A stretch of 22,777 bases of DNA from positions 1 to 22,777 of IMG/VR virus record IMGVR_UViG_3300010354_000709. The stretch is one strand, 5' to 3'. Below the pieces are notes generated by a model. That model did no database searches and was not told the DNA's origin. It saw nothing but the letters and a program-made list of their open reading frames with translations. Below are positions 4,552 through 22,389 of the stretch, one piece after another. How positions within the stretch are numbered: position 1 is the first letter of the stretch; each line of letters opens with the position of its first letter. A program made the position numbers and the translations under genes. The DNA is from a virus.

Positions 4552-4594
4552 GAGTTAAGTGTCCGATACCAAGTATGAGCAGGAGAGTTAAGTG
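4551..4594 (+). repeat. 11-bp direct repeat around the intergenic gap
   Basis: AGAGTTAAGTG occurs at 4551-4561, directly at the end of the structural gene, and again at 4584-4594, where it includes the GTG start of the first RCC1 gene. The copies are 33 bases apart. This may be a recombination scar from insertion of the RCC1 gene cassette, or chance. Confidence 0.5.
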
Positions 4595-6247
4595 GCTTTC
4601 ACTAGACGAAAAAATCGTAAAAGTACTACAAACTTTGCAAGAACACGTGTCTTATCTAACACACTGGACAGCAACGCTCCACTAGAACTGGTTCAAAATA
4701 AGCACTATCAATCATGTGCTTTCCTTCCTAGAACAGATCATTTGCCATATCAAAATATCGGAAACTCCGGTGCTGTTATGTATTGGGTTACCAATGGTGG
4801 TAAACAGATTATGACTGCTGGGTACGGGCCACAAACCTTGGCTGGTGGAAGAGCAGCAGGCAACCATGACATCCTTGAACCACGACCATGTTCTCTAAAA
4901 CCAGAATTAGACAGAGATGATTTTATTGTTGATTACGCTATTGGTTTTTACTACTGTTTATTTGTAACAAATAAAGGATACGTTTACTCAGGCGGTAATA
5001 ATGATCAAGGGCAACTAGGACACGGGGACACTACTGCAATCCCATTCTTTAAACGAGTAACTTCCACAGCAGGTGGTGTTTTATTTGGTCCTGGTGGAGA
5101 ACGAGCCGTTAGGTGCTACACAAATATAGACTACGGAAATTCTGCAAATAGACGATCTTTGATTCTTACAGAATCAAAACTTCTTTATGGTTGTGGGTTC
5201 AACTCCAACTACGAATTAGGAATAAGCGGTAATACAACTCAACAAAATGCATTTGTTCGTGCTGCCCCGACACTTTCAGATATCAAAGATGTATATGTTG
5301 GAAGACTTACCACTGGTGCGGTTTTGCCAAACGGACAGTTTTATACTTGGGGGTTTAACGGAAACGGAGAGCAAGGGTTAGGAAATACCACAGTTCAACA
5401 AGTTCCTGTTCTTTCAAACTCAAACGTTGCCTTGGTCCGCCATGCTTGGAACGCTTCAAACAACAGATCTTGTTTTATTCTTAAAACAGACGGCACGGTT
5501 TGGTTTACTGGTTTTCAAGCAAGCTATGGTCAAGCAGGACTTGGTAACTTGACAAACTATACCTCATGGCAACAAGTAACAGACGCCTTAATCAACAATA
5601 CTAGTAGTCGTGTAGTTGACATTCAAACTTCCGGATGGTCTGGAGACGCCAACCAATACGCAACCACTTGGTTTCTTATGGATAACGGCACGATTTATTC
5701 TTGTGGTTACAACACATACGGACAAATGGGCTGGAACGGTACATCTCACTCCAATACTCTAGGAGCTTTAATTATCCCTGCTGGTTTTCCTAAAGTAGAT
5801 CAGATTTTCCAAATGGGCGGACATTCGATAACTACATTTTATGGAATTAACAAGGCTTCTGGAAGAATGTTTGCAGTTGGGAATTGGAGCTGGGGAGCAC
5901 TTGGGTATGGTACCGGAGACTGGGCGGCAAGTTCGGGTTCTGGCAGATGGGATAATAGGACTGTAACTAATTTCCGAGCGCATTGGCCAGCAAGAGAAAT
6001 TGATGCCCCGCCTGTAATTGAGGATGGTTTGGCCAAGTTTCACTCTATAGTTGGGTTGAATCTTGCTGACGCTTCAGGAGGCCAACAACCCAATCCGATG
6101 ATTTTATGCACAGATGGAACAGTGTGGACAAGGGGATACAACCTCAACGGCTATCTTGGTATTGGACTTGTACAGCCTTACAGCGGAGCAAACTCTTATG
6201 CTAGACAAGAACAGTATAATTTTGCGTGGAGGCCTGTATTATTATGA
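4592..6247 (+). CDS. RCC1-repeat beta-propeller tail protein, paralog 1
   Basis: This is a 551-aa protein that starts at GTG 4592, placed by AGGAGAG at 4581-4587. It carries repeated RCC1 blades, recognised by units such as YSGGNNDQGQLGHGDTT, YGCGFNSNYELG, YTWGFNGNGEQGLGNTT and YSCGYNTYGQMGW, each followed by a strand and spaced 50-60 aa apart. RCC1 propellers are interaction platforms. In a phage late region they most likely form a receptor-binding or baseplate component, which is inference. The start MAFTRRK and the overall arrangement match the next two genes, so the three arose by tandem duplication. No catalytic motif was seen. Confidence 0.8.
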   Translation: MAFTRRKNRKSTTNFARTRVLSNTLDSNAPLELVQNKHYQSCAFLPRTDHLPYQNIGNSGAVMYWVTNGGKQIMTAGYGPQTLAGGRAAGNHDILEPRPCSLKPELDRDDFIVDYAIGFYYCLFVTNKGYVYSGGNNDQGQLGHGDTTAIPFFKRVTSTAGGVLFGPGGERAVRCYTNIDYGNSANRRSLILTESKLLYGCGFNSNYELGISGNTTQQNAFVRAAPTLSDIKDVYVGRLTTGAVLPNGQFYTWGFNGNGEQGLGNTTVQQVPVLSNSNVALVRHAWNASNNRSCFILKTDGTVWFTGFQASYGQAGLGNLTNYTSWQQVTDALINNTSSRVVDIQTSGWSGDANQYATTWFLMDNGTIYSCGYNTYGQMGWNGTSHSNTLGALIIPAGFPKVDQIFQMGGHSITTFYGINKASGRMFAVGNWSWGALGYGTGDWAASSGSGRWDNRTVTNFRAHWPAREIDAPPVIEDGLAKFHSIVGLNLADASGGQQPNPMILCTDGTVWTRGYNLNGYLGIGLVQPYSGANSYARQEQYNFAWRPVLL

Positions 6248-6276: not shown

Positions 6277-8100
6277 ATGGCTTTCACTAGAAAATCCAAG
6301 GCGGTTAATTTCAACGAACCTGGAAAAGAGAACGTATATAACACTACCTCTGCTTCAAAAGACCTCAGCACTACTCCAATAACGGCCCCTCACCCTTACT
6401 TTTTTGTATCTGAACTTCCAGACACATCCACAGTTAATACTGGCGCAAGCATTTTCACCGAACGAAAAATGTATGCCCTCATGGAAGGTAATAGGAGAAT
6501 AAAAGCTTGGGGTACCTCTGGAAGCTACGGACTAAGTGGCTATTCTAACCAAACTGTCCACCCTATTTTCCCACAGTTAGTTCAGTTTGATTACCCTTTA
6601 GAAAAAGATGATTTCATTACTCAAATAGCCGTTGGTAAAGGTCATATGGCTGCTTTTGTAACTGCAAAAGGTTATTTGTATACAGGCGGTTATGCAGACA
6701 ATGATCGCTGGATGGGGTTTGGTGATGATGTACACCGTTATGCCTTTTCACGAGTTTCTCATGCTGAAACAATAACAACTGCTACGTTTAGTTCTGGTGG
6801 TGCCGTAGGAGCAAACAATTTTGTTATTACAGCAGTAAATGCAAACATAGTCGTTGGTCAGCAAGTAGTAGGTTTTGGAGTTCCTTCATGGACAACAGTA
6901 ACTGCTGTTTCGGGTACGACAATTACCTTAAGTAACGTATTCAATCAAGTCGCTGCTGGTGTGTATAGTTTTGGTCGCCCTTGGGGTCCAGGTGGAGTAT
7001 GTGCTAAAAAAGTATATCTACCATCAAGCACTCTTAACACAAGCTCTGAACAATGGGCGTTGGTGCTTAGCACAGATAGCAATGTGTATGCCTGTGGCTA
7101 CAACGGACATGGGCAAATGGGCATTGGTAATACAGCTACCCCTCGCGGGTATTGGGACAGAGTTCCAGGAATTTCCAACATTAAAGAAGTCTATTGCAGT
7201 AATTACACTGCTTTCGCAATAACATACAGCGGACAGTTATGGGGTTGGGGCTATAACGGCTATGGGCAATTAGGCATAGGCAGCACCGGTAACGCGACTT
7301 CTCCAACGTCCTTAGTTGCAAGCGGTGTAAACAAAGTCTTTCATAAGGGTAATGAATACGAAACATCCTTTTATATTTCTAACGATGGGTTAGCTTATTC
7401 TTGCGGTGCAAACCATTATGGGTCTTTGGGGATTAACGTAGAAAACACAAGTAATACAACCACATGGACTGTTGTAAACACAACAAACATAGGAACACGC
7501 AGGGTTATAGATATTAAAGCTGCTGGCACTGGCACGTACAATACGACGTGGTTTTTGTGCGATGACGGAACTGTTTTTGCATGTGGTAATAATGGTTCTG
7601 GACAAGTTGGAGATGGCACCACTACTACTAGACAGATCCCTACTTTAATTACGCAACCTTCTGGATTCCCCAAGGTAGACAGAATTGTTGTTGCAGGTGG
7701 CAGCAATACCCATTTTGTCATGGGAATAAACATGGCTACTGGGCGTATGTGGTCTGTTGGTAGTTGGAACTATGGAGCGATTGGTCAAGCTATTGGTGAG
7801 CCAACAGGTACTTGGGCATTTACAAATACCTCAACTAGAGCACAATACCCAGCAAGAGAAACTTTAAGTATCCCATCAGTAGAAGACGGATACACAAAAA
7901 TTAAAGATTTTTTTGTAATGTCTGGCCCCAACGGAGAATCAACAGTTTATGCTCTTTGTTATGATGGAACAATTTGGGTTAGAGGATATGGCCACTATAA
8001 CGCAAAAGGACATAAATTCGTGCAGCATTATTGGAATGGTAACTTAACCTATCAAGGTACGCAATACACAGATACGGGATGGAAGCAAGTGGAGTTCTAA
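6277..8100 (+). CDS. RCC1-repeat beta-propeller tail protein, paralog 2, with an inserted domain
   Basis: This is a 607-aa protein with a good ribosome binding site (AAAGAGGAAAG) before the ATG. The RCC1 blades are obvious: YACGYNGHGQMGIGNT, WGWGYNGYGQLGIGST, YSCGANHYGSLGI, FACGNNGSGQVGDGTTT. Compared with its two sister genes it carries about 69 extra residues (roughly 165-233). The extra stretch contains GQQVVGFGVPSWTTVTAVSG and TTITLSN, a beta module known from other phage structural proteins. The sisters have only a short turn at that point (TSTAGG..FGPGG). The length difference from the third paralog matches the insert. It is probably a virion surface propeller. Confidence 0.8.
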   Translation: MAFTRKSKAVNFNEPGKENVYNTTSASKDLSTTPITAPHPYFFVSELPDTSTVNTGASIFTERKMYALMEGNRRIKAWGTSGSYGLSGYSNQTVHPIFPQLVQFDYPLEKDDFITQIAVGKGHMAAFVTAKGYLYTGGYADNDRWMGFGDDVHRYAFSRVSHAETITTATFSSGGAVGANNFVITAVNANIVVGQQVVGFGVPSWTTVTAVSGTTITLSNVFNQVAAGVYSFGRPWGPGGVCAKKVYLPSSTLNTSSEQWALVLSTDSNVYACGYNGHGQMGIGNTATPRGYWDRVPGISNIKEVYCSNYTAFAITYSGQLWGWGYNGYGQLGIGSTGNATSPTSLVASGVNKVFHKGNEYETSFYISNDGLAYSCGANHYGSLGINVENTSNTTTWTVVNTTNIGTRRVIDIKAAGTGTYNTTWFLCDDGTVFACGNNGSGQVGDGTTTTRQIPTLITQPSGFPKVDRIVVAGGSNTHFVMGINMATGRMWSVGSWNYGAIGQAIGEPTGTWAFTNTSTRAQYPARETLSIPSVEDGYTKIKDFFVMSGPNGESTVYALCYDGTIWVRGYGHYNAKGHKFVQHYWNGNLTYQGTQYTDTGWKQVEF

Positions 8101-9716
8101 TGGCAATATCAAGAAGAAAAAGTGCAGAAAAATATATAACCAACCCTTCAGCAAAGTTAGTAAGGGAGACTTTAGATAATTCCACAATCCCCACATGGAA
8201 CCCTTCTAAGAATTATCAAAAATGTGCCATGCTCGTTCACAATAGAACTGCTGCTGGTGGTATGGGTGTTGACACTTATCAATCATCATATTTTCTCATG
8301 GAAGGGCAGAAAAGGTTTACGGTAGCAGGGTACCAAACGGGTTACAATATGGCCGGCTATTCCAATCAAGAAGCTCTTGCCGTAGAACCTGTATTAGTAC
8401 AGAATAACCCACCTTTAGCGCTTGATGAATACTTCGTAGATGCTTGTATGGGTTACGTTTGTCTTTACGCAGTGACAAACAAAGGCAATGTGTACACTGG
8501 TGGCTATAATCCTCATGGCAATCTTGGTCACAATGACACTACCCCTAGATATTCTCTCTTAAAAGTAACTTCAACCGCAGGTGGAATACAGTTTGGTCCA
8601 GGAGGAGTACAAGCCGTTAAAGTGTTTTCTACCGGATGGTCTGGCTACACAGCAAATACAGCCTACGTTTTGGATTCGGAAGGTAAAATCTATGGGTGCG
8701 GTTTTAACACTCAATACCAACTTGGCGATGGAACGACAACACAACGTAACGCTTTTCAACGCATTGGATCTTTAGAAGACATTACAACACTTTTCACGGG
8801 TGGTCAGTATGTTTTTGCTTTAAGAAATGATGGCAACCTGTACGTATGGGGAGATAACGCCAACGGTCAATTGGGTGTTGGTGATACTACTGCCCGTACA
8901 ACTCCAGTGTTGTCTACAACAGGTGTTAAAAAAGCACTAACAATGGATAACACTACTTACAAAAATGCTCACATCCTCAAAGCAGATGGAACCGTTTGGT
9001 TTACTGGATATTCAGGCTCAAATGGAGTTAGCGGTCTTGGTACTGCCACACAACATACAACTTGGCAACAAGTTACGATTAACATTTCTGGTAAAAATGT
9101 TGTAGATATTATTTCTAATGGACATGGCGCTGAATCGCGTTCTACTTGGGCACTTATTGACGATGGTTCTATTTATTCGTGGGGCTATAACGGCTATGGT
9201 CAATTGGGGCATAGTGCAACTACAGCTCAAGGTTCTCCTAACCTGTTAGTACAACCAACAGGGTTTCCAAAAGTAGATAAAATTCTGTCATTTGGTTCCG
9301 CTTCACAATATGGGTTTAAAGCCGTAAATATGGCAAGTGGAAGAATGTTTACAGTTGGGAATTGGTGCAATGGTGCTATTGGTATATCCAACAGTGACCC
9401 ATCTGGTACTTGGCCCCAAGAAAACCCTGAAACTAACCGTGCTCACTATCCAGCACGAGAGGTAGCAAGTCCTCAACCAGTGCAACAGGGATATGCAACT
9501 ATTAAAGATATTGTAGCTATGAGTACAGACAACAATGATCAAACTAGAGTATTTTGCTTATTGTCAGATGGCACAGTATGGGCCAAAGGATCTAACAATA
9601 AAGGAGAAATGGGCACAAAATACACAATGACTTTCTACAATGATGGCACAAACACACCTTCATTTCAATGGGGCAATCTTCGGTGGAATCCAAATTGGCA
9701 GCAAATTGACTTTTAA
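8100..9716 (+). CDS. RCC1-repeat beta-propeller tail protein, paralog 3
   Basis: This is a 538-aa protein. The ATG at 8100 overlaps the previous stop by one base (TAATG) with GGAG just upstream, and gives MAISRRK, matching the MAFTRRK and MAFTRKS starts of the sisters. An earlier in-frame ATG at 8079 lies inside the upstream gene and is less likely. RCC1 blades include YTGGYNPHGNLGHNDTT, YGCGFNTQYQLGDGTTT, YVWGDNANGQLGVGDTT and YSWGYNGYGQLGH. The segment GGYNGYGQ-type blade in this gene and in paralog 2 is almost identical at DNA level (around 9184 and 7249), which suggests recent duplication or gene conversion. It is the last gene before the strand switch. Confidence 0.8.
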   Translation: MAISRRKSAEKYITNPSAKLVRETLDNSTIPTWNPSKNYQKCAMLVHNRTAAGGMGVDTYQSSYFLMEGQKRFTVAGYQTGYNMAGYSNQEALAVEPVLVQNNPPLALDEYFVDACMGYVCLYAVTNKGNVYTGGYNPHGNLGHNDTTPRYSLLKVTSTAGGIQFGPGGVQAVKVFSTGWSGYTANTAYVLDSEGKIYGCGFNTQYQLGDGTTTQRNAFQRIGSLEDITTLFTGGQYVFALRNDGNLYVWGDNANGQLGVGDTTARTTPVLSTTGVKKALTMDNTTYKNAHILKADGTVWFTGYSGSNGVSGLGTATQHTTWQQVTINISGKNVVDIISNGHGAESRSTWALIDDGSIYSWGYNGYGQLGHSATTAQGSPNLLVQPTGFPKVDKILSFGSASQYGFKAVNMASGRMFTVGNWCNGAIGISNSDPSGTWPQENPETNRAHYPAREVASPQPVQQGYATIKDIVAMSTDNNDQTRVFCLLSDGTVWAKGSNNKGEMGTKYTMTFYNDGTNTPSFQWGNLRWNPNWQQIDF

Positions 9717-9762: not shown

Positions 9763-11262
9763 TTAAAAGCGACTTGACCTAAGAAGTTCAATAAATTCAG
9801 TATTGTCCATAAAATCTTTTGAAATTAAATTCATATGCTCGATATGGCGCTCATAATCTTTTTTTCCATGATCCCCTTGCTTGTACTGCTTCAATTCTCT
9901 CAATGCCATTTCTTTGGAAATAAAACCAAGACCAGCAAGAACCCAATTGTAAATTCCAGAACCAGCAAAACCCATCATTACATTTAACTCATCATCTAAA
10001 ATAGTTTTATGTTTTGACGACTCAATTATCCATAGTGCTCGTTCAGTACGTCTTTCGGGCTTAGAAATGTCACGCCAAAACTCAGTATCGGTTCTTTCGC
10101 TGGCGTAGTGAACGCTAATAAAATCTTTAAAGCCTTCGTATAGCTCGCCTATCATTTTGTTATATGCCGCTATCGAAGCCCAGTTACAGGTAGCTTTTAT
10201 GTCTTGCTTAAGATAGTTAAAAACAAAATAGTGAAGTTGTGTAATTGTCCCATGAATACTTGTTGCCTCTAGTGGCTCCAAAAATGCTGATGATAAACCG
10301 ATAAATAAACAATTGTTTTTCCAAACTTCAGATAATCTGCCTGCGTCAAAGTCAATAAACTTTATCGGATTAATTTCTTGCCTCAGAAGCATTTCAATTT
10401 CTTTTTGAGCATCTTCTTTTGTTGTGTACGATGAGTCAAAGACATATCCGCAACCCATTCTGTCTTGAGTTGGTGTCATCCACATCCAACCGTGTTTTTG
10501 TGCATAAGCAACAATTACTGGGTCAATCCTGAACCCTTCTTTATGCTGAAGAATAAAAGGCATTGCCGTATTCACTGGCAAATGTTTTGCATATGACTCC
10601 CATTTGACGCCCATTTTCTTGGGAAGTACTCGATTAAACCCAGTGGCATCAATAAAAAAATCAGACTCAACATTTTGCCCAGACCCAAGCGTAACAAACT
10701 GTATATTTCCAGATTCGTCTATTTTTGCATCTGAAATTTTCCCGTCAATTACCGTCACGGATTGGCACCGGCGTTTAAAGTATTGACCCACTAAGTGTCC
10801 ATCAAAGTTGTAGCCGTAGTTGTTCCCTGCCTTTAAAACATCTCCCTCAAAATGAAATGGCGACAGTGATTTGGAAGTCAAATATCCATTTCTACTTGCC
10901 GTATGCATGGGAATATCGTTAGCTATAACATGCATGAAAGAAGGAAAAGTCCCATACTCTAATTGGCCAGTACCGTCTATTGGGGCAATATATTCGTGGT
11001 TAAGTTTTCGCCAATCAACATGATGAATTGCCATTTTGGGAGTTGCATTTGTTTCTTTAAAAAATTCTGTTTCATTACAGCCATAGTTGAAACGAGAGTT
11101 TTTTATAATATTTGTCAGGGTTCCTGTGCTGGCTTCCCCGGCACCGATTATCCCTATTTCGCTAGATTCAATTACGGTCACTTGGTGCTCTGGGTGAACT
11201 TTACTGATCATAAAAGCAGCAAGCCAACCTGCCGTTCCCCCACCTAGGACGGTTATTTTCAT
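9763..11262 (-). CDS. Flavin-dependent (tryptophan-halogenase-like) halogenase
   Basis: The 499-aa product has the FAD-binding Rossmann start MKITVLGGGTAGW (GxGxxG at 7-12). It also has the putative catalytic Lys76 in NATPKMAIHHVDW, FIDATGF at about 203-209, a WMWMTP at 259-264 corresponding to the halogenase WxWxIP signature with Thr for Ile, and AFLEPLEATS with Glu332 in the place of the catalytic Glu of PrnA. Length and motifs fit the tryptophan halogenase family, in which FADH2 and oxygen make hypohalous acid that is guided to a Lys. Cyanophages carry such enzymes (VirX1 of phage Syn10 was characterised as a halogenase). The substrate is unknown. It needs reduced flavin, presumably from the host, since no flavin reductase is in view. 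It is a single minus-strand gene between two plus-strand fibre clusters. Confidence 0.9.
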   Translation of the reverse strand: MKITVLGGGTAGWLAAFMISKVHPEHQVTVIESSEIGIIGAGEASTGTLTNIIKNSRFNYGCNETEFFKETNATPKMAIHHVDWRKLNHEYIAPIDGTGQLEYGTFPSFMHVIANDIPMHTASRNGYLTSKSLSPFHFEGDVLKAGNNYGYNFDGHLVGQYFKRRCQSVTVIDGKISDAKIDESGNIQFVTLGSGQNVESDFFIDATGFNRVLPKKMGVKWESYAKHLPVNTAMPFILQHKEGFRIDPVIVAYAQKHGWMWMTPTQDRMGCGYVFDSSYTTKEDAQKEIEMLLRQEINPIKFIDFDAGRLSEVWKNNCLFIGLSSAFLEPLEATSIHGTITQLHYFVFNYLKQDIKATCNWASIAAYNKMIGELYEGFKDFISVHYASERTDTEFWRDISKPERRTERALWIIESSKHKTILDDELNVMMGFAGSGIYNWVLAGLGFISKEMALRELKQYKQGDHGKKDYERHIEHMNLISKDFMDNTEFIELLRSSRF

Positions 11263-13202: not shown

Positions 13203-14213
13203 ATGTCTGAATTCATCAAACGAGGTGCCGTCAGTCAGGCTGTAAGCGGTGGTCCGCTTGCGCCTCGTCATAATCGAAACAACAAAACAGATGGTATATT
13301 TGCTTATTGGTTTGCTCAAGGCAAATCTATCCTTGCGGCTTTTATTGATTCTTTCACGCGAAGCAATAATGCAAGCAGCGTAGCAGGTGGCCCAGTGGAT
13401 TGGGTAGCAGAAAGTGGTACTTGGGGTATTGATACAAACATGGCAACCACGAGCACAGCTGCTTCTTCTTATCCTGTAGTTACTTTTGATGCCGGAACAG
13501 TGGCCGCAACGGTGAAGGCAACCTTGCCGACCACAAGATCTGCAGGCGCAGGTGTTGCATTTTGGGTTACCGACACCAACAATTGGTGGGCGGCTGTTGC
13601 TGACAAAGTGGATTCGACTGGTGCGCCATACAACTGTTCTGGTCCAGGAACTGCAAATAACTCAACCGGTAATTGTTCTTATACTTATCAATCAGTTGGT
13701 GGCGGACCAGGCGTTGCACCAGGTGGCTACTATCCGTATTGGGCATGCAGTAGTGGAACACTGTTTGGGAATGGTTGCTGGTACTACGATGGCTACACTT
13801 GGATTCAGTTCGGTACGGGTTATATTGCTTGTTGTACTTATGTAGCTCCGTACCCTTACAATGCTCCATACAATTACACCCCAGTGCCAGTAACCTACGC
13901 TGGCACCGCAAGTACCTATAATCGTTCAGATATTAAAATTATTAAAAAAACTGCTGGGGTTATTTCAACTGTTTCTACGACCCAAGTCGCCAACCCAACA
14001 TCAACTTCATATTTAACCTATATTCAAGCGGCAACTACGCCTACTGGAGTTACGGTTACGGCAGTTGATAGTTCAGCACCAAATACTGTTGTGACTGCAA
14101 ATGCGCTCGCAGGATTACCGTTGCCTGCTCAAAAATTTGGTATTGTCTATACCCCATCAACCCTTTATGGAAATCCGAAAGTTGAACAAGTTGAGTACAC
14201 CCCTGCTCCGTGA
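13203..14213 (+). CDS. Lectin-like adhesin with a Cys/Tyr/Pro-rich insert, 336 aa
   Basis: The start of the protein (IDSFTRSNNAS then WVAESGTWGIDTN, AGVAFWVTDTNNWWAAVAD) has the pattern of laminin-G/concanavalin-like beta-sandwich domains common in phage adhesins. That domain resumes at about residue 240 (RSDIKIIKKTAG through LPLPAQKFGIVYTP). Between them, residues about 137-233 form an insert with six cysteines (145, 158, 182, 192, 210, 211), about 16 tyrosines and several prolines, including VAPYPYNAPYNYTPVPV. The ATG lies three bases after the preceding stop with no ribosome binding site, so translation is probably coupled. The product is likely an exposed receptor-binding protein. The insert could be disulfide bonded or a target of modification enzymes encoded nearby, which is inference. 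Confidence 0.75.
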   Translation: MSEFIKRGAVSQAVSGGPLAPRHNRNNKTDGIFAYWFAQGKSILAAFIDSFTRSNNASSVAGGPVDWVAESGTWGIDTNMATTSTAASSYPVVTFDAGTVAATVKATLPTTRSAGAGVAFWVTDTNNWWAAVADKVDSTGAPYNCSGPGTANNSTGNCSYTYQSVGGGPGVAPGGYYPYWACSSGTLFGNGCWYYDGYTWIQFGTGYIACCTYVAPYPYNAPYNYTPVPVTYAGTASTYNRSDIKIIKKTAGVISTVSTTQVANPTSTSYLTYIQAATTPTGVTVTAVDSSAPNTVVTANALAGLPLPAQKFGIVYTPSTLYGNPKVEQVEYTPAP

Positions 14214-14364
14214 TTTTGCAAAAGAAAGATTTGAGATTTGCAGAAGTTGTCCTCGATACTTCAAGTTGACATCAACTTGTCGCGAGTGTGGATGTTTTAT
14301 GATATTAAAAATACAACTAGCTTCAGCTAGTTGCCCAATTAAAAAATGGAGTGCAAATGTATAA
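14167..14364 (+). CDS. Seven-cysteine zinc-ribbon-like small phage protein
   Basis: This 65-aa product overlaps the 3' end of the adhesin gene by 47 bases. Its C-terminal half has Cys spacing CX2C-X9-CX2CXC-X12-C and ends CPIKKW. The spacing and the CGCFM..K..L...CP..KW signature are exactly shared with the minus-strand protein at 22156-22389, so they are one family, seen widely in aquatic phages. The cysteines suggest metal binding. The start is uncertain: the ATG at 14167 is the simplest, but TTG codons at 14182 and 14191 are possible and none has a clear ribosome binding site. The function is unknown. Confidence 0.7.
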   Translation: MEIRKLNKLSTPLLRDFAKERFEICRSCPRYFKLTSTCRECGCFMILKIQLASASCPIKKWSANV

Positions 14365-14656: not shown

Positions 14657-15058
14657 ATGGCAGCACAAATTCTTTCAAGCAGTCAAGGGCCAGTGGTGGT
14701 TTATGAGGGACTTGTTCTTCGTATGTCCGATGTTGAGGGTATGTTGGCCGCAGTTGATGATACCCCTAACTTGCTTCAAGATCTAGAAAAATCAATTATT
14801 GAACATTTTCTTTTAGTAGTTGAATTTGTGAAAGAAAATTTTTTAGATAAGAAAAAACATCTTTATGTCAAACTGGTTTCAGATGCATTGACGACAATGG
14901 ATGATTTTAATAAATTTGCCAATGTTGAATATATTTCATACTTACACAATAGAACATTACAGAACAATCCCCATATGACCCCAGAACAAGCAGACAAGGA
15001 AATGCGTCGACAAAATCGTCAAGATATTAACGATTTCTACGCACCAAAACAAAAATGA
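14657..15058 (+). CDS. Hypothetical helical phage protein, 133 aa
   Basis: The product is strongly charged and looks helical from residue 30 on (LLQDLEKSIIEHFLLVVEFVKENF; KLVSDALTTMDDFNKF) and ends with a basic, Gln-rich stretch (EQADKEMRRQNRQD). It precedes a chain of oxygenase genes and its stop overlaps the first of them by four bases (ATGA), which ties it to that operon. No Shine-Dalgarno sequence was seen; a -10-like TAGGCT lies six bases upstream. The family is not recognised. It might be an assembly or regulatory partner, but nothing visible shows this. Confidence 0.65.
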   Translation: MAAQILSSSQGPVVVYEGLVLRMSDVEGMLAAVDDTPNLLQDLEKSIIEHFLLVVEFVKENFLDKKKHLYVKLVSDALTTMDDFNKFANVEYISYLHNRTLQNNPHMTPEQADKEMRRQNRQDINDFYAPKQK

Positions 15059-15672
15059 CTCACAAACCATCTGATGTAAGGTATGACAGACCAGTAAATA
15101 ACTGCACCCCGCCTTTTATTGTTGTCTCTAAAGTATTCACACATAAAGAGTGTGCAGAAATTATTAGTATCGGAAACTCTAAATCTCTTGAGCCAGGCAA
15201 GATCGGTGACGGTTCAGTTAAGTCTGAAATTCGAAGTTCCGATTTAAGATTTATTGAACCTTTAAATCTAGAAAAAATTGGTTGGATTTTTGAAAGACTA
15301 AAAGAAATTATTGACAACGTAAATGACCGAGTTTACGAGTATGACCTTAAGTATTTTGCTCCTCCGCAATTCACCTTATACAAAGAGGGTGATTTTTATG
15401 ATTGGCACATGGATTTAATTATGGGAAATCCGTGCCCAAACTTATTTATGAGGAAACTTTCCGCAACGGTTTTTCTTTCAAACCAAAACGAATTTACTGG
15501 TGGCGAATTTTTGATAGGCAGAAAATCAGACGGATCACACGAAAATGTGATTGAAAACGAACAAGGTGCCGTGGTTTTGTTCCCGTCTTTTATGTGGCAT
15601 AAAGTTAACCCTGTTTTGTCGGGTCAAAGATTTTCTTTAGTTGTTTGGACAGAGGGAGACAAATTCAAATGA
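15055..15672 (+). CDS. 2OG-Fe(II) oxygenase, prolyl-4-hydroxylase/PKHD type (1)
   Basis: This 205-aa enzyme has the jelly-roll oxygenase signature. The iron ligands are H118 and D120 (DWHMD) and H182 (FMWHKV), and R192 (QRFSLVVW) binds the 2-oxoglutarate carboxylate. The surrounding TVFLSN....GGEFLIG and GAVVLFPS strands fit PKHD-type and P4H-like hydroxylases. Such enzymes hydroxylate protein side chains or small molecules using oxygen and 2-oxoglutarate. The start codon overlaps the previous stop (ATGA), and its own stop overlaps the next gene in the same way, so translational coupling is likely. The substrate is unknown; tail proteins are a plausible target. Confidence 0.88.
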   Translation: MTHKPSDVRYDRPVNNCTPPFIVVSKVFTHKECAEIISIGNSKSLEPGKIGDGSVKSEIRSSDLRFIEPLNLEKIGWIFERLKEIIDNVNDRVYEYDLKYFAPPQFTLYKEGDFYDWHMDLIMGNPCPNLFMRKLSATVFLSNQNEFTGGEFLIGRKSDGSHENVIENEQGAVVLFPSFMWHKVNPVLSGQRFSLVVWTEGDKFK

Positions 15673-16442
15673 GCAACGATTTAACCGTCTATTGGGCGCC
15701 ATGGATTGAGGGAGAATATTCTGGGCAGCGAAATAAATTAGGTCCAAATCAATGGATCTATCAAGAACCTGAAAGCGTTTATAAAGATGTTCTTTCAAAA
15801 AAAAGCGATCAAAAAATAACCAAAAATTTTTTTCAATGTCCGGCAGTAAGAGATGCTCTGCAGTCTGTCTATGTAATTAAATGTCCATTTGCGACAGAAG
15901 CAGAAGTTGTCCTGAAGGAAGATGGAGCAGTAGACAAGATTGAACAAAATTGGGCCAAGGACCTACCAAACCTCTTATCTCAGTGCCCCATAAAACTAGC
16001 CCATGCCCCATCTAAGGAAAATGAATTGCTGGTAGTGGTGGAATATACCTATCTATTTTTCTGCGAAGAGTCTTTGGAAATGAGAATGACGGCGCCATGG
16101 TTCCATGAGGCTCCCCACCTACAATATGGTGCGACGGTACCTGGGGTGTTTGACATTGGTCGCTGGATGAGACCAGTACATTTTGAAGTAAATTTATGGC
16201 AGGGGCAGACAAAAATAAAATATGAAGAAAACGAAGCAATGGGCTATATTGAGTTTGGTACGAATAAAAAAATTAATTTTCAAAGATTTGAAACAACTCA
16301 AAAAATAAAAGAAATTGTTGGCGATGCAATCAACACTAGAAACAAAAGATTTACACCAAGCCTATTGAAGCGGTACGAAATTTTTGATCGTTCACCAGTA
16401 AAAAAAATGTTAGTAAAAGAGATAAAGGAGAACCTTTTGTGA
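15669..16442 (+). CDS. Hypothetical protein of the oxygenase operon, 257 aa
   Basis: The ATG at 15669 overlaps the preceding stop by four bases with GGGAG upstream; an in-frame TTG at 15645 is the weaker choice. The sequence begins MSNDLTVYWAPWIEGEYSG, with FFQCPAVRDALQSVYVIKCPF following and APWFHEAPHLQYGATVPGVFD in the middle. It is rich in aromatic residues and beta strands without a catalytic motif I can name, and ends in a basic helical tail. I recall similar WAP...CPA....YVIK proteins in large aquatic phages but no name. Its place between oxygenase genes suggests work in the same process. Confidence 0.7.
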   Translation: MSNDLTVYWAPWIEGEYSGQRNKLGPNQWIYQEPESVYKDVLSKKSDQKITKNFFQCPAVRDALQSVYVIKCPFATEAEVVLKEDGAVDKIEQNWAKDLPNLLSQCPIKLAHAPSKENELLVVVEYTYLFFCEESLEMRMTAPWFHEAPHLQYGATVPGVFDIGRWMRPVHFEVNLWQGQTKIKYEENEAMGYIEFGTNKKINFQRFETTQKIKEIVGDAINTRNKRFTPSLLKRYEIFDRSPVKKMLVKEIKENLL

Positions 16443-16975
16443 TATTTCTCGAAACATCGTCGTTGATAGTTGACAATATGAAAGAAATAGAAGAGTCAAT
16501 TAATTTTGCTGGCTTTAAATATCACGACATTTATGGTGACCACGAAATGACCACCAATCATATGAATTACAATCTGTTTGCTCTTTTGTCTCTGGATTTG
16601 AATTTTTATTATCTCTATGCAGAACTACAACACAGAATTAGGGATGTTTTGGGTTATGAAAAACCGCTTTGGATGCAGGCATGGTTAAATGTGCATTCAG
16701 AGGCTGCGGTGCTTGATTGGCACGATCATGCTTGGCCATGGCACGGATATATATGTATTGACCCCAAAAAAACAAACACTGTTTTCAGGAATCCAACAGA
16801 TGGATCAGAGTACAAGGTAGAGAATAAACCAGGTCAAATTTATTTTGGAAATGGCGGGATATTTCATAAAGTTGAAGTTGTAGAAAGTTATTCTGGCTTT
16901 CGTACAACAATTGGGTTTGATGTAACCGATCAAGCAGGGGGAAAATTAAAAAGTGTCAGTTTTATACCGTTCTAA
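16439..16975 (+). CDS. Putative 2OG-Fe(II) oxygenase, PF13759-like (2)
   Basis: This 178-aa protein starts at GTG 16439 after a strong AAAGGAG site, overlapping the previous stop by four bases (GTGA). The core has MQAWLNVHSEAAVLDWHDHAWPWHGYICID with H95 and H97 as candidate metal ligands, then PGQIYFGNGGIFHKVE with H143, and SGFRTTIGFDV with R155 in the place of the oxoglutarate-binding residue. The order W.N.......H.H...GY......F..P..G......HKV....R matches putative 2OG-FeII oxygenases of the PF13759 type, but the family fit is less certain than for its neighbours. The substrate is unknown. Confidence 0.7.
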   Translation: MIFLETSSLIVDNMKEIEESINFAGFKYHDIYGDHEMTTNHMNYNLFALLSLDLNFYYLYAELQHRIRDVLGYEKPLWMQAWLNVHSEAAVLDWHDHAWPWHGYICIDPKKTNTVFRNPTDGSEYKVENKPGQIYFGNGGIFHKVEVVESYSGFRTTIGFDVTDQAGGKLKSVSFIPF

Positions 16976-17573
16976 ATCCAAAGAGGAACAATATTCTCAG
17001 GGCGATCACATAGGTGTTTGGGATAATTTTTTTTCGCCAGAACTATGTCAAAAATTTATTAATTTTTATGAATACCGTTCCAAAATTGCATTTCAAAGAA
17101 ACAGTCAAGACAAGCAAGACTTTTCTATAAATCTTGGCAATGAACCAGCGATGCGAGATCTGGTCTTGGATCCCTCAATGAGCGACGAGTGCTTACATGA
17201 GTTTTTGGATCAGTTTTGGGGAAAGTGCTACCCAATGTATCTTGACAAACATCCACAAATGACATCGGCTGCCTCACCACCAATTTTATCAACAATCAAA
17301 ATACAGAAAACACTGCCTCAAGGCGGCTACCATGTTTGGCATTGCGAGCACGCAAATATCGAAACAGGGCGAAGATTTGCTTTTATTATTCTTTATTTGA
17401 ACGATGTTGAGTCTGGCGGGGAGACAGAGTTCCTGTATCAGTCTGCTCGTGTTGAGGCTTCTCAGGGACGCCTAGTGCTTGCACCAGCCGCCTATACGCA
17501 CATGCATAGGGGCAATCCACCACTTACGGGCGCAAAATACATCCTTACTTCGTGGCTGGAGTTTGAGAAGTAG
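16953..17573 (+). CDS. 2OG-Fe(II) oxygenase with HxE motif (3)
   Basis: This is a 206-aa enzyme. The GTG at 16953 lies inside the previous gene by 23 bases, with AGGGGG about 11 bases upstream, so the start is fairly but not fully sure. The iron site reads YHVWHCEH with H130 and E132 in place of the usual HxD, followed by ILYLND....GGETEF, APAAYTHMHRGNPP (distal H183) and KYILTSW with Lys195 where other family members have Arg. I recall this WH.E......GGETEF....HRGNPP pattern from cyanophage-type oxygenases, so the Glu is probably a lineage feature and not damage. The substrate is unknown. Confidence 0.85.
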   Translation: MSVLYRSKSKEEQYSQGDHIGVWDNFFSPELCQKFINFYEYRSKIAFQRNSQDKQDFSINLGNEPAMRDLVLDPSMSDECLHEFLDQFWGKCYPMYLDKHPQMTSAASPPILSTIKIQKTLPQGGYHVWHCEHANIETGRRFAFIILYLNDVESGGETEFLYQSARVEASQGRLVLAPAAYTHMHRGNPPLTGAKYILTSWLEFEK

Positions 17574-18507: not shown

Positions 18508-19206
18508 ATGACCATAATCACTTTACGCAAAACGCAAACAAATCCTCCAAAAATTAAACAGTCTCGAATAAAACGAGACTGGATGGATGCCACTTACAAT
18601 AAACATGCATACCAATGCAGACCAATGACTGTAGCGAATGTGTATGGGTGGGAACTTTCTTTACCTTGCGATGTGCGTGTTGTCTGGCGTGGCGATAATC
18701 ATCAAGTTGATATTCTTAGCGGCGCAAACTGTGGCGCATCTTCGGGAATTATTGGAATGGTGACATTTTCGGTCGGCTGGAGATTTAAGACAGAGCCGGG
18801 TTTTTCTATACAAATTGGCGGTTCGCCAAATTTAATACTTCCGGGTGCTCAGGCTTTATCGGGAATTATTCCTACGGATTGGTGGCCAGATGAGTTTCAA
18901 ATGAATTGGATGATTACTGACCCAAATAGAGAAATAGTATTTCCTGCAGGGTTTCCATTTATGTTTTTTACCGTAATACAAAATTCGGTTGTTGAAACTG
19001 CCGAACTAGAATTAGATCTATCTATTGAAGATGCTGATTTTATTAAATCAAGAATAAAATATGGGAGTGAAAAAATGCGTCGCAATGTTGAATATCCTTG
19101 GACGTGGACAAAGGGTATTAAAACCGGACTAGATGCTGACGGGAATAAAATTGGAGATGTATTTACTGGTTTACCAAAACTTCACGAACCAAATGACGAA
19201 GGCTGA
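18508..19206 (+). CDS. DUF6065-like protein
   Basis: This 232-aa protein carries the run of motifs I associate with DUF6065: KRDWMDATYNKHAYQCRPMTV, ANVYGWEL then PC, DWWPDEFQMNWMITDP, and FPAGFPFMFF. The function of the family is not known, and it occurs in bacteria and in phages with oxygenase genes. The ATG at 18508 has no ribosome binding site, and a TATAAT (18504-18509) overlaps it. A later start at Met26 (WMDATY) would drop the region before the conserved motif. The 3' end overlaps by 25 bases with the convergent small gene at 19182-19346. Confidence 0.7.
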   Translation: MTIITLRKTQTNPPKIKQSRIKRDWMDATYNKHAYQCRPMTVANVYGWELSLPCDVRVVWRGDNHQVDILSGANCGASSGIIGMVTFSVGWRFKTEPGFSIQIGGSPNLILPGAQALSGIIPTDWWPDEFQMNWMITDPNREIVFPAGFPFMFFTVIQNSVVETAELELDLSIEDADFIKSRIKYGSEKMRRNVEYPWTWTKGIKTGLDADGNKIGDVFTGLPKLHEPNDEG

Positions 19207-19346
19207 TTTTCGGCTATTTCTACAATCTTGTCAATCGTTTCTTGATTAACAAAAGAGGCGAGAACATGGCTCACCCATTGGTAGGATGACTTTTCGCAAT
19301 AACCTTTGGTCTGCATTAATTTGGCTATTGATTCAATATCTTTCAT
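19182..19346 (-). CDS. Small hypothetical protein, 54 aa
   Basis: A 54-codon frame starts at ATG 19346-19344. Its first four bases overlap the stop of the upstream oxygenase (ATGA), as in other gene pairs of the window. The product starts MKDIESIAKLMQTKGYC and continues with SYQWVSHVLASFVNQETIDKI, mixed helical with charged and hydrophobic residues and no low complexity. It covers the otherwise empty stretch 19207-19342 and reaches 25 bases into the convergent DUF6065-like gene. The ribosome binding site is weak. It is likely co-translated with the oxygenase. Function unknown. Confidence 0.6.
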   Translation of the reverse strand: MKDIESIAKLMQTKGYCEKSSYQWVSHVLASFVNQETIDKIVEIAENQPSSFGS

Positions 19347-20038
19347 TTTTTTGCACTCGCAATAGTTCCATCTTCGTTGTATCCAGGGGTGTATCTATGA
19401 AATCTATCGTTGTAATCAAACATGGTCACTGCAGAATATTTCACACCAGAAGACACCGGCAAAGAAGCATGTGAGTAAATAAAATTTGAAGGACAGATGA
19501 CAATGTCGCCTTTGTGGGGGGTGTATTTTTGGTCAATATAAGGAAACCAAAGTTCCCCTCCTTCAAAATCATCATTAAGATAGCCAACGGTAGAAACAGA
19601 ACATGTGTATGAAAACCCGTGGTCTGCATGTACCTGAAAGTGTTGACCTGGTCCATATTTGACAAAATTAACCGCTTCAATGTAATCCATTGAAATTCCG
19701 TATTGTGAGGTGTAGTGATCTACGCATGCTTTAGTGTAAGCAATGAGGTCATTTAGCAAAGCGGCCATTGGTGCGTATTCTTTGGGTGCTTGGTCTAATT
19801 CGAATTTTCTAAGTTTGCAGTCAAAGCAATCTCGATAATCTTTTTTTTCTTCATAATCGCCAACCAAAGCAGGAAACCAAGAAACATTTTTTAATTTTCC
19901 TATCAACATTGCATTATCAATAGTTTCCGTATCGGTTGTGTGTGGAGGTAGCACTGAACGGTATATTTTTATGCCAAACCGAGGGTCATCGATGCATTCA
20001 ACACTAACTTGTGGTTGATTCATATTTGGGTTAGACAT
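19343..20038 (-). CDS. 2OG-Fe(II) oxygenase, prolyl-4-hydroxylase type (4)
   Basis: This is a 231-aa enzyme. The iron ligands are H137 and D139 (QVHADHGFSYTC) and H190 (YSHASLPV), with Lys200 in GVKYSAVTMF in the oxoglutarate-binding place usually held by Arg. GYLNDDFEGGELWFP and GDIVICPSNF are the typical middle strands. The C-terminal half is clearly related to the minus-strand protein at 20649-21182 (both have NDD..GGEL.F and SHASLPV..G.KYS). A -10-like TAGGAT with upstream TGT lies seven bases before the ATG. The product is likely a protein or small-molecule hydroxylase. Confidence 0.88.
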   Translation of the reverse strand: MSNPNMNQPQVSVECIDDPRFGIKIYRSVLPPHTTDTETIDNAMLIGKLKNVSWFPALVGDYEEKKDYRDCFDCKLRKFELDQAPKEYAPMAALLNDLIAYTKACVDHYTSQYGISMDYIEAVNFVKYGPGQHFQVHADHGFSYTCSVSTVGYLNDDFEGGELWFPYIDQKYTPHKGDIVICPSNFIYSHASLPVSSGVKYSAVTMFDYNDRFHRYTPGYNEDGTIASAKK

Positions 20039-20045
20039 AGCTGAT

Positions 20046-20054
20046 ATCCTAACA
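20046..20054 (-). promoter_or_regulatory. Candidate extended -10 promoter, leaderless, in a 15-bp divergent gap
   Basis: On the minus strand TGT-TAGGAT (hexamer 20051-20046) precedes the ATG at 20038 by seven bases. The plus strand carries TGA-TATCCT here, before the divergent oxygenase. The two genes share only 15 bases between starts, so any promoters must overlap each other and the coding sequences. Confidence 0.35.
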
Positions 20055-20635
20055 TGAATATGATTCGCATTGGAAGTAAGGAAAATATAGTATTTGTCCC
20101 CAATTTACTGACGACTGATGAGTGTGTCTCAATAACAAATTATTGTGAGTCGGTCAAATTATGGCATTCAAATTCCTATGACGGAAGCAATGACAAAGTG
20201 CATTCTATTGCATCGTTTTCTGACTCGTCTTTAAATGCGCTTAAAGTAGCAGTAAATTCGTTGCATGAAAAAATCGAGAATAGGTTTGGACGAGAACTTG
20301 GTCCACAATTCCCAGGAATTCGTAAATGGGAAGTCGGCGATTACCAACCCCTTCATGCCGATGGAGAAGACACCGACGGGAATCCAAATGAAGCCTATGC
20401 TGTTGACTATGCATCAGTTATTTATATAAATGACAACTACTTAGGTGGGGAAATAGAATTTCCACTACAGGAAATTATTTGGAAACCAGTATCTGGGACG
20501 GCAGTGTTTTTCCCTGCAAATAAGTGGTTTGCGCATAAAGTTCACGAAGTAACATGCGGCACTAGATACACGTCTGCTCAATTTTGGGTACCTACAAAAC
20601 ATTTAAAACTGCGAGACTTTTACTTTTCTAAGTAA
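20054..20635 (+). CDS. 2OG-Fe(II) oxygenase, prolyl-4-hydroxylase type (5)
   Basis: This 193-aa enzyme shows the full ligand set: H101 and D103 (PLHADGED), H161 (FAHKVHEV) and Arg171 (TRYTSAQFW). The middle strands SVIYINDNYLGGEIEFP and GTAVFFPANKWF are standard for the P4H-like group. It is the only plus-strand gene in the minus-strand block; it diverges from oxygenase 4 and converges on oxygenase 6, sharing a hairpin at its 3' end. A second ATG lies two codons downstream of the chosen one. There is no Shine-Dalgarno site. Confidence 0.88.
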   Translation: MNMIRIGSKENIVFVPNLLTTDECVSITNYCESVKLWHSNSYDGSNDKVHSIASFSDSSLNALKVAVNSLHEKIENRFGRELGPQFPGIRKWEVGDYQPLHADGEDTDGNPNEAYAVDYASVIYINDNYLGGEIEFPLQEIIWKPVSGTAVFFPANKWFAHKVHEVTCGTRYTSAQFWVPTKHLKLRDFYFSK

Positions 20636-20654
20636 TTTTTTTAGAAAATTACTT
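20630..20654. terminator. Bidirectional hairpin terminator
   Basis: AAGTAATTTT (20630-20639) and AAAATTACTT (20645-20654) make a perfect 10-bp inverted repeat with a TTTAG loop. It contains the stop codons of both convergent oxygenase genes (TAA at 20633-20635 and, on the minus strand, at 20651-20649). It is AT-rich, with T runs inside the stem on either strand. It probably ends transcription from both sides. Confidence 0.6.
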
Positions 20655-21182
20655 CCACCAACAAACAACAGAATATTTAATTCCTTTAGTTACTGGTAGC
20701 GAAGCATGAGAATGAACAAAATTTGATGGAAAAACTACTATGTCTCCTGCTACTGGTTCGTATATAAAATTTAACAAATCAAAATAAAGTTCTCCGCCCT
20801 GATAGTCGTCGTTCAAAAACCCAACTGCGCTAATTCTTCTTGGCGTAAATTCTGAGTCGTCATAGTGTGTCTTAAACTCTTCGCCGACCTCATATTTTAA
20901 CAAATTAAAATTGCTAATTTCTGGCAACACCACCGGAGCATTGAACCTACAAATGTAGTGACCTACTGTTTTTTTAAAATCTTGATTAAAAGACGTACTT
21001 ACCTCATGCGGAAATTGATTTGTATCCGAACTTGTTCTCAAATTAGAAGATGGCTTATCTCCGTATAGTGTGGATTTTTGCCAAACAGCAATTTTGCTGT
21101 TTTCTGTTAGACTAATTAAAAGTTGCGGATTTTGAATTGCTGAACGATAAATCGCTATGGCGCCAACGAGAATTGATTTCAT
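20649..21182 (-). CDS. 2OG-Fe(II) oxygenase, prolyl-4-hydroxylase type (6)
   Basis: This is a 177-aa enzyme. The iron ligands are H106 and D108 (KTHYDDSE) and H159 (HSHASLPV), with Lys169 (KGIKYSVV) in the oxoglutarate-binding place. Its second half aligns by eye with oxygenase 4 (GFLNDDYQGGELYFD against GYLNDDFEGGELWFP), so these two are paralogs with different N-terminal regions. It lies 54 bases downstream of the glycosyltransferase on the same strand. The start lacks a Shine-Dalgarno site; the AT-rich 54-base gap holds a candidate promoter. Confidence 0.87.
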   Translation of the reverse strand: MKSILVGAIAIYRSAIQNPQLLISLTENSKIAVWQKSTLYGDKPSSNLRTSSDTNQFPHEVSTSFNQDFKKTVGHYICRFNAPVVLPEISNFNLLKYEVGEEFKTHYDDSEFTPRRISAVGFLNDDYQGGELYFDLLNFIYEPVAGDIVVFPSNFVHSHASLPVTKGIKYSVVCWWK

Positions 21183-21206
21183 AATTTAAATTTTAAATAC
21201 TAAAAA

Positions 21207-21234
21207 AGTGTATCAAAGAGAACAATTTTTGCAA
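21207..21234 (-). promoter_or_regulatory. Candidate promoter for oxygenase 6
   Basis: On the minus strand TTGCAA (21234-21229), a 16-base spacer and TACACT (21212-21207) preceded by TGA form a possible promoter with an extended -10. The ATG is 24 bases after the hexamer, without a ribosome binding site. A TAAAAT seven bases before the ATG is an alternative. Confidence 0.3.
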
Positions 21235-21236
21235 TA

Positions 21237-22151
21237 TTATAAACACTGAAATCTCGCTTTAAATTTTTTTAAATCTATATTCATTATCCGTATTGCCTCA
21301 GCAGCAAGTTCTTTGTTTGGTGCCCCCCAAAGACCAGTAATAGTTCCGTCAAATATTGATGCCACTCGCTGAAGAGTGTATCTATCCATAGATGTAATTA
21401 TTGATGCACGAGTATCGGAAAAATAAGATGTCCTCCAATCGTTGGCTTTGAGTGAATTAAAATATTTATCACTTTTATCTAAATGGTATATATCAATATA
21501 ATCTGTAGAAAAACTTCTTATACCTCTTGAAATTAAACGAAAATACATACTGTGCTCCTCCCCATAAAACCACATATGTGGATCGGGGGGGACATCCAAG
21601 AAGGTACTTGCTTCAGAAAACAAGTATGCAGCACTAACTGCATAGTTTTCTTTCCAATCAATAGTGCTTTCCAAAACCCAATTGTTTGACCAAACACGAA
21701 ACATATCGTCAATAAATAGCGACGATGGTTGCTCATTTTTTTTAATTGGCGTCATTCCATCTTTTTCATCTTCCCTACACGGTGACACATGCTGCGAAAT
21801 TACAACTCTTTCTTTGCAATTTTTTACAATTGCATTATACCTAGAGACAATTTCTTCGTCCCAATTCTTACCAAAAAGCATGTGCGCATCACATTGAAGC
21901 ACATAGTCAAAATATTGTGCATTTTTTAATGCCATATATCGAACAATTCCCACCCCAGGTGGGATACTAGATTCATATTTTGTATGTATTACGAATTTGT
22001 TTTGTAAGTCAGAAAATCTGGAATCACTCCTGAATTCACACACACTAATCTGAATGTCGTGTTTGTTGCTTTTATTGTCAAGTATTGAATTAACAGTTTG
22101 TTTTATGTGGGATTCGTTATACGCTGCAATAGCAACAAGAATGGTTGCCAC
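21237..22151 (-). CDS. GlcNAc-type glycosyltransferase (PF11397/GT60-like)
   Basis: This is a 304-aa enzyme. It begins TILVAIAAYNE as in GT-A glycosyltransferases. It then shows PPGVGIVRYMAL and the DxD-like VLQCDAHMLFGKNWDEE (D88, H90), a WFYGEEHSMYFRLISRG block (about 194-210) and IDIYHLD (H223). This order matches the GlcNAc-transferase family PF11397 (GT60), whose Dictyostelium member Gnt1 adds GlcNAc to hydroxyproline of Skp1 after a prolyl hydroxylase has acted. The start is GTG 22151, with TAGG near it inside the end of the upstream gene. Being beside several hydroxylase-like genes makes a coupled hydroxylation-glycosylation role plausible. Sugar and acceptor are unproven. Confidence 0.82.
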   Translation of the reverse strand: MATILVAIAAYNESHIKQTVNSILDNKSNKHDIQISVCEFRSDSRFSDLQNKFVIHTKYESSIPPGVGIVRYMALKNAQYFDYVLQCDAHMLFGKNWDEEIVSRYNAIVKNCKERVVISQHVSPCREDEKDGMTPIKKNEQPSSLFIDDMFRVWSNNWVLESTIDWKENYAVSAAYLFSEASTFLDVPPDPHMWFYGEEHSMYFRLISRGIRSFSTDYIDIYHLDKSDKYFNSLKANDWRTSYFSDTRASIITSMDRYTLQRVASIFDGTITGLWGAPNKELAAEAIRIMNIDLKKFKARFQCL

Positions 22152-22155
22152 ATGC

Positions 22156-22389
22156 CTACCATTTACCTAAAGGGCAAACAGCCTCTTGAAGTTTTACTTT
22201 TAGGGCCATAAAACAACCGCATTCTTTGCATTGTTTTGTTACTTTTATTAAGCGGTCACAATCAAGACAAGTATTGAGTCGTTTTTCTGCAAGTTCGTTA
22301 CTTGCATTTTCGGTTGTTGGGTTTAATAAATCAAATATAGTAACTCCATTTTTTTGTTTATATTGTTCCCATCTTGATTTTGCGTTCAT
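22156..22389 (-). CDS. Seven-cysteine zinc-ribbon-like small phage protein, second copy
   Basis: This is a 77-aa protein with the spacing CX2C-X9-CX2CXC-X12-C and the ending CPLGKW, as in the protein at 14167-14364. It has an extra N-terminal stretch (MNAKSRWEQYKQKNGVTIFDLL). The ATG overlaps the stop of the upstream gene by four bases (ATGA) and GGAGAG lies about 10 bases before it. The glycosyltransferase follows after four bases, so the three are one operon. It may bind zinc. Function unknown. Confidence 0.8.
   Translation of the reverse strand: MNAKSRWEQYKQKNGVTIFDLLNPTTENASNELAEKRLNTCLDCDRLIKVTKQCKECGCFMALKVKLQEAVCPLGKW

Follow-up and report, generated by a model that had tools for sequence, protein, structure and literature searches.

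A GT60-like glycosyltransferase encoded beside prolyl-hydroxylase-like oxygenases in a viral tail region and in SAR86 bacteria: a possible hydroxylate-then-glycosylate protein modification

Introduction

Does a virus that carries a GT60-like glycosyltransferase gene directly upstream of a prolyl 4-hydroxylase (P4H)-like oxygenase gene use the two products in turn, first hydroxylating a protein and then attaching a sugar to it? To our knowledge, protein modification of the hydroxylate-then-glycosylate type has so far been described only in eukaryotes. The question is raised by a 22,777-base virus record, the whole of which is called the window here, and by a sequence-only reading of it, which likened the gene pair to the Skp1 pathway. 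That pathway, in Dictyostelium and Toxoplasma, employs the prolyl 4-hydroxylase PhyA and the GT60 enzyme Gnt1 (PMC6939170).

Results

The glycosyltransferase gene and its family

The glycosyltransferase ORF (Table 1) is a genuine gene, and its product shares 64% amino acid identity with a protein in two further viral contigs. Apart from the window, its nearest relatives represent a single lineage, since L001 and L002 have the same sequence throughout the stretch; in the phage collection no close relative was found, only distant ones from jumbo phages. The proposed membership of the PF11397/GT60-like family was borne out by profile search, with 66.9 bits (E 2.9e-18) against a cut-off of 21, and the L001 relative scored 65.2 bits. 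Enzymes of the GT2 type were not the best match: PF00535 gave 18.5 bits, under its cut-off of 23.3, and the fold favours GT27 (see below). The alignment to PF11397 falls into two stretches, profile positions 1–43 and 102–299 of 352, and canonical members of the family span positions 1–350; the window enzyme and its relatives are referred to here as short-form.

The three motifs read earlier from the sequence are present, DAH at residues 88–90, GEEHSM at 197–202 and IYHLD at 221–225. Across a 46-member alignment, D88 is conserved in 46 and H90 in 45 sequences, E199 in 38 and H223 in 33. By analogy, H223 is a plausible third metal ligand.

Table 1. Features of the window, with positions, strands and principal database matches.
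Feature	Position	Strand	Details
Short-form GT60-like (PF11397) glycosyltransferase	21237..22151	-	GTG start, 304 aa; DxH (D88/H90), GEE (197-199), H223
P4H-like 2OG-Fe(II) oxygenase	20649..21182	-	177 aa; PF13640 5.1e-14; HxD...H...K present
2OG-Fe(II) oxygenase	20054..20635	+	193 aa; PF13640 1.3e-8; syntenic homologue in L001
2OG-Fe(II) oxygenase	19343..20038	-	231 aa; PF13640 5.3e-11; 84% identical homologue in L001
DUF6065 protein	18508..19206	+	232 aa; PF19541 1.4e-43
2OG-Fe(II) oxygenase	16953..17573	+	206 aa; PF13640 9e-9; phrog_61 1.7e-40
Divergent 2OG-oxygenase-like protein	16439..16975	+	178 aa; phrog_2696 4.3e-41, oxygenase phrog_81 1.6e-6
2OG-Fe(II) oxygenase (P4H/PKHD-like)	15055..15672	+	205 aa; PF13640 2.7e-14
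Tryptophan halogenase	9763..11262	-	PF04820 5.1e-87; phrog_2928; amid tail genes
RCC1-type protein	4592..6247		PF25390 9.7e-48
RCC1-type protein	6277..8100
RCC1-type protein	8079..9716
Cysteine-rich DUF6171 protein	14101..14364
Cysteine-rich DUF6171 protein	22156..22389	-	directly upstream of the glycosyltransferase gene

Fold and likely chemistry of the glycosyltransferase

An AlphaFold2 model built from the 46-sequence alignment of viral relatives reached a mean pLDDT of 93.1 and a pTM of 0.92. The first 41 rows returned by Foldseek with this model were all GT27 polypeptide GalNAc-transferases (E from 2.1e-11), enzymes that have a GT-A fold and a DxH metal motif (PMC6939170). VIA comparison with GT27 gave Z 23.5 over 266 residues, the best non-GT27 chain reaching 17.9; the GT2-type enzyme SpsA, with which the fold is shared, scored Z 16.3, far under the GT27 value. 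At the sequence level, no kinship with structurally solved GT27 enzymes was visible, as the family profile matches no PDB chain at E<=10. PDB sequence searches with the glycosyltransferase or its profiles gave chance hits (coatomer, dUTPase) or none, and no GT60 structure was found among them. Taken together, the GT27 fold match and the near-invariant DxH make the modelled enzyme look like a protein glycosyltransferase, not a GT2 enzyme of lipid or polysaccharide synthesis. Its chemistry would be of the retaining, UDP-HexNAc-dependent kind.

Oxygenases and other genes of the window

The earlier reading had placed a P4H-like oxygenase gene one gene downstream of the glycosyltransferase on the same strand, and this is what was found, with a gap of 54 bp and a clear PF13640 match (Table 1). 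The best PDB match of its product is the Bacillus prolyl 4-hydroxylase (3itq, 2.7e-7). Four other window ORFs pass PF13640; they and a divergent oxygenase-like ORF occupy the 15.0–20.7 kb region. The divergent product had no match in a Pfam search and no clear HxD was seen in it. Five more such genes had been counted nearby, a number that holds if the divergent ORF is included; the strands are mixed, and most of the five lie opposite to the glycosyltransferase. Its strand is shared by the adjacent oxygenase gene and the more distant one starting at 19343, and the one starting at 20054 and the group at 15–17.5 kb are on the plus strand.

In the oxygenase alignment (A4), H106 and H159 are invariant and D108 nearly so. 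When 18 oxygenases of the window and of related loci were combined into a profile and compared with the PDB, the Bacillus P4H (3itq) ranked first at 2.5e-21, followed by PKHD-type hydroxylases, the P4H 5c5t (1.9e-16), prolyl 3-hydroxylase 1 and collagen P4H, with 7zsc at 1.1e-11, and TET-like enzymes reached only 6e-5. The same preference for P4H upholds the view of these proteins put forward earlier. Individually, the product starting at 15055 has sub-threshold matches to PKHD-type NCBIfam models (best 9.7e-17), and that of the adjacent gene scores 17.2 bits (E 0.0032) against Tet_JBP, under the threshold of 34.9. P4H-like is thus a fair description of the window oxygenases, which belong to a broad family in which sequence does not reveal the substrate.

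The model of the DUF6065 protein (pLDDT 82.6) resembles dUTPases in fold, at Z 11.3 over 116 residues; its motif III reads, by eye, GIIPTDWW, without the usual dUTPase GxID. Tail-type genes of the window encode RCC1-like repeat proteins and repetitive fibre-like proteins. The three tandem, similar-looking RCC1-type proteins (545–607 aa) are probable tail adhesins. Two small cysteine-rich DUF6171 proteins are also encoded (Table 1).

Pairing of short-form glycosyltransferases with oxygenases in phages

A scan with short-form sequences returned 363 relatives, of which the best 80 were kept, and the short-form locus counts rest on these. Where at least 3 kb was available on both sides of the glycosyltransferase, a 2OG gene lay within 3 kb at 29 of 49 short-form loci and at 1 of 71 canonical PF11397 loci. 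Since some seed loci owed their selection to 2OG genes or PPFF repeats on the contig, the count was repeated without their clusters; at the level of 70%-identity clusters it then stood at 15/22 short-form against 1/26 canonical (p 2e-6). A maximum likelihood tree (quick search) grouped the window enzyme with 34 others in a clade of SH-aLRT 99, in which a 2OG gene lies no more than 3 kb away for 24 of the 35 members and is missing from that range for 11; the canonical phage clade has none in 26. The co-occurrence of the two families expected for related phages thus holds for the short-form clade and fails for canonical PF11397 enzymes. The broader notion that phage PF11397 always accompanies 2OG genes was discarded, because among 50 records carrying distant PF11397 relatives just 4 had any PF13640.

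Because 2OG genes may abound in the tail regions of aquatic phages, genes were also compared within loci. Fifteen of 25 glycosyltransferase genes adjoin a 2OG gene, compared with 25 of 187 other genes of the same loci, and none of 5000 relabellings reached 15. Immediate 2OG neighbours of short-form genes are on the same strand in 18 of 24 cases, and in 16 cases the gap is an operon-like <20 bp. The third recurrent partner is DUF6065, found within 3 kb in 10 of 27 short-form clusters. Short-form islands also carry tryptophan halogenase, sulfotransferase-like and further glycosyltransferase genes. Carbamoyltransferases occur near short-form genes as well, and at other loci two more tryptophan halogenases do.

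SAR86 and other bacteria

The genome scan found 54 bacterial relatives of the glycosyltransferase. In the SAR86 ocean bacteria and in a gammaproteobacterial MAG related to them, its gene and a P4H gene are arranged back to back within a conserved gene order (uvrD-like, rpiR-like, P4H, glycosyltransferase, mazG-like; names assigned by eye). The SAR86 pair is located at 7317–8996 of L488, and also occurs in L508, L489 and L465. The SAR86 P4H matches the Bacillus P4H at 3e-30 and that of Chlamydomonas at 2e-28. Among 61 genomes of the SAR86 order (that of G171), which may be incomplete, a P4H homologue was present in all 17 PF11397-positive genomes compared with 12 of 44 negative ones (p 1e-7, a statistic that ignores kinship). 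The P4H gene is adjacent to the glycosyltransferase gene in six of the 17 and elsewhere in the genome in 11. Limnobacter and some other bacteria have the transferase with no adjacent 2OG gene.

The pair turns up across many phages that are not related to one another, and short-form linkage, adjacency within loci and co-occurrence in SAR86 together make a hydroxylase–protein-glycosyltransferase unit well supported.

Proline-rich and collagen-like proteins as candidate acceptors

Tail-type ORFs of the window have at most 7 prolines per 40 residues, and no proline-rich ORF was found in the window. Elsewhere, several loci are suggestive: an FN3-(PPPF)n protein neighbours the glycosyltransferase in L001, an FN3-APPTF/Cys-rich protein is near it in L373, a 1638-aa collagen-like (GPQ) fibre adjoins a GT60-like gene in L059 (11361–16277), with a 2OG oxygenase a few genes off, and GSPG repeats occur nearby in G153. 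A proline-rich or collagen-like substrate beside the glycosyltransferase was nevertheless rejected as a general feature, as the counts around short-form genes show no persuasive enrichment (15/72 against 6/47 random contigs). Such ORFs accompany 8 of 36 short-form genes that have a 2OG gene near, and 31 of 72 canonical PF11397 genes.

A pattern scan for (PPFF)n tail-type proteins yielded a set of viral contigs (L125–L242) in which PF13640 oxygenases were present in 47 of 50, with 1–12 copies each, compared with 1 of 42 contigs taken at random. Of 70 (PPFF)n genes, 45 lie within 2 kb of a 2OG gene. PF11397 was no commoner in these contigs (3/50) than in random ones (2/42). Proline repeats may well be substrates of some of these oxygenases, and the link between PPFF and 2OG genes does not involve PF11397.

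Discussion

The reading that we favour, with a probability of roughly 0.5, is that the gene encodes a metal-dependent polypeptide transferase of the GT60/GT27 kind, retaining and of O-HexNAc type, that works with the adjacent P4H-like oxygenases. During infection, the oxygenases would hydroxylate a virion protein encoded in the surrounding tail-fibre region, at side chains that are most likely prolines; the transferase would then add a sugar, taken from a host UDP-sugar, to some of the hydroxyls so formed. We infer this order of action, as well as the hydroxyproline acceptor and the tail-protein target.

An arrangement that we consider unlikely, yet serious, is that the transferase is a Ser/Thr O-glycosyltransferase of tail fibres and the oxygenases modify other residues or proteins, the genes sharing a variable tail island with no sequential action. 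GT60 also includes a polypeptide GlcNAc-transferase of Trypanosoma cruzi that has been linked to mucin-type O-glycosylation, so that hydroxyproline does not follow from membership of PF11397 by itself, and GT27, the nearest fold, glycosylates Ser/Thr (PMC6939170). Canonical phage enzymes that lack 2OG genes, often near proline-rich or collagen-like proteins (the 31 of 72 above), would suit such a role, as would the halogenase, sulfotransferase-like and other glycosyltransferase genes of the islands. Taken alone, though, it leaves unexplained why the short-form and not the canonical clade pairs with 2OG genes, why the two genes adjoin more often than other genes of the same loci, and why P4H co-occurs in all 17 PF11397-positive genomes of the SAR86 order, where no tail island is involved.

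Modification of host-surface glycans is the role of many phage glycosyltransferases. That the target of the window enzyme is a teichoic-type polymer or a glycan of the host surface, for receptor masking or superinfection exclusion, is decidedly improbable: GT-A enzymes of the TarP, TarS and KfiA types do appear further down the fold lists, but at Z about 15–16 against 23.5 for GT27, and sugar-nucleotide-type enzymes are near some short-form loci (in L370, a DegT-type aminotransferase and an isomerase-like protein), but the window showed no polyprenyl-sugar partner, and it is a P4H-like oxygenase that recurs as partner of the transferase. Hypermodification of DNA or nucleotides, with TET/JBP-like 2OG enzymes oxidising a base that the transferase then glycosylates, is very improbable despite the weak Tet_JBP match, a DUF6065 fold that would suit a nucleotide pathway and the position of the PF11397 gene of Xanthomonas phage XacN1 near a DNA polymerase and a carbamoyltransferase, because the oxygenase profile favours P4H over TET by about 16 orders of magnitude and the SAR86 chromosome pairs a canonical P4H with the transferase; moreover, 4–7 oxygenases per tail region would be excessive for one base, and the DUF6065 motif III departs from that of dUTPases.

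Sequential hydroxylation and glycosylation, the favoured reading, may not be confined to viruses: viruses and bacteria may both use a two-step modification of this type. More tentatively, it is possible that the SAR86 P4H–GT60 pair represents an oxygen-dependent hydroxyproline-glycosylation pathway of bacteria, homologous to that of Skp1, and that phages took up parts of it and multiplied them for their tail proteins. As a bacterial Skp1-like pair, the SAR86 P4H–PF11397 genes deserve a study of their own. If the reading is true, a compact bacterial or phage system of hydroxyproline glycosylation would be tractable for study, would help to explain the arrays of 2OG oxygenases in tail regions of aquatic phages and would bear on the origin of the eukaryotic oxygen-sensing pathway of Skp1.

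Comparison with known systems

A search of the open literature, a scope outside which most subscription journals and preprints fall, found no description of PF11397 enzymes paired with P4H-type enzymes in phages or bacteria. The window oxygenases resemble the Bacillus prolyl 4-hydroxylase (3itq/5hv0), their closest solved relative, and the phrog_61 2OG oxygenases of cyanophages. According to passages of two earlier papers, prolyl-hydroxylase-like folds are widespread in marine phages (a structural survey; PMC12774648), and cyanophage 2OG enzymes had been proposed to serve DNA repair and 2OG balance (PMC3037559); those passages draw no link from phage oxygenases to a GT60 enzyme.

The canonical phage enzymes, such as ORF334 of XacN1 (260.8 bits), belong to the same Pfam family as the window glycosyltransferase. 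Unlike it, they are longer, form a separate clade (23% identity) and are not linked to 2OG genes. In jumbo phages of this kind, the full-length canonical enzyme is encoded directly upstream of a carbamoyltransferase (XacN1, L013 7992–11709). With GT27 polypeptide GalNAc-transferases, the window enzyme shares the DxH motif and, by a wide margin, its closest solved fold; unlike them, it is of phage and bacterial occurrence, lacks a lectin domain and has no PDB sequence match at E<=10.

The closest known system is the eukaryotic Skp1 pathway. The differences are that the genes described here belong to phages and bacteria, that there are several oxygenases per locus, that the glycosyltransferase is shorter (304 aa) and divergent, that there is no Skp1 acceptor and that activity is predicted. 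What the two have in common is the pair itself, a P4H-type oxygenase together with a transferase of the PF11397/GT60 family.
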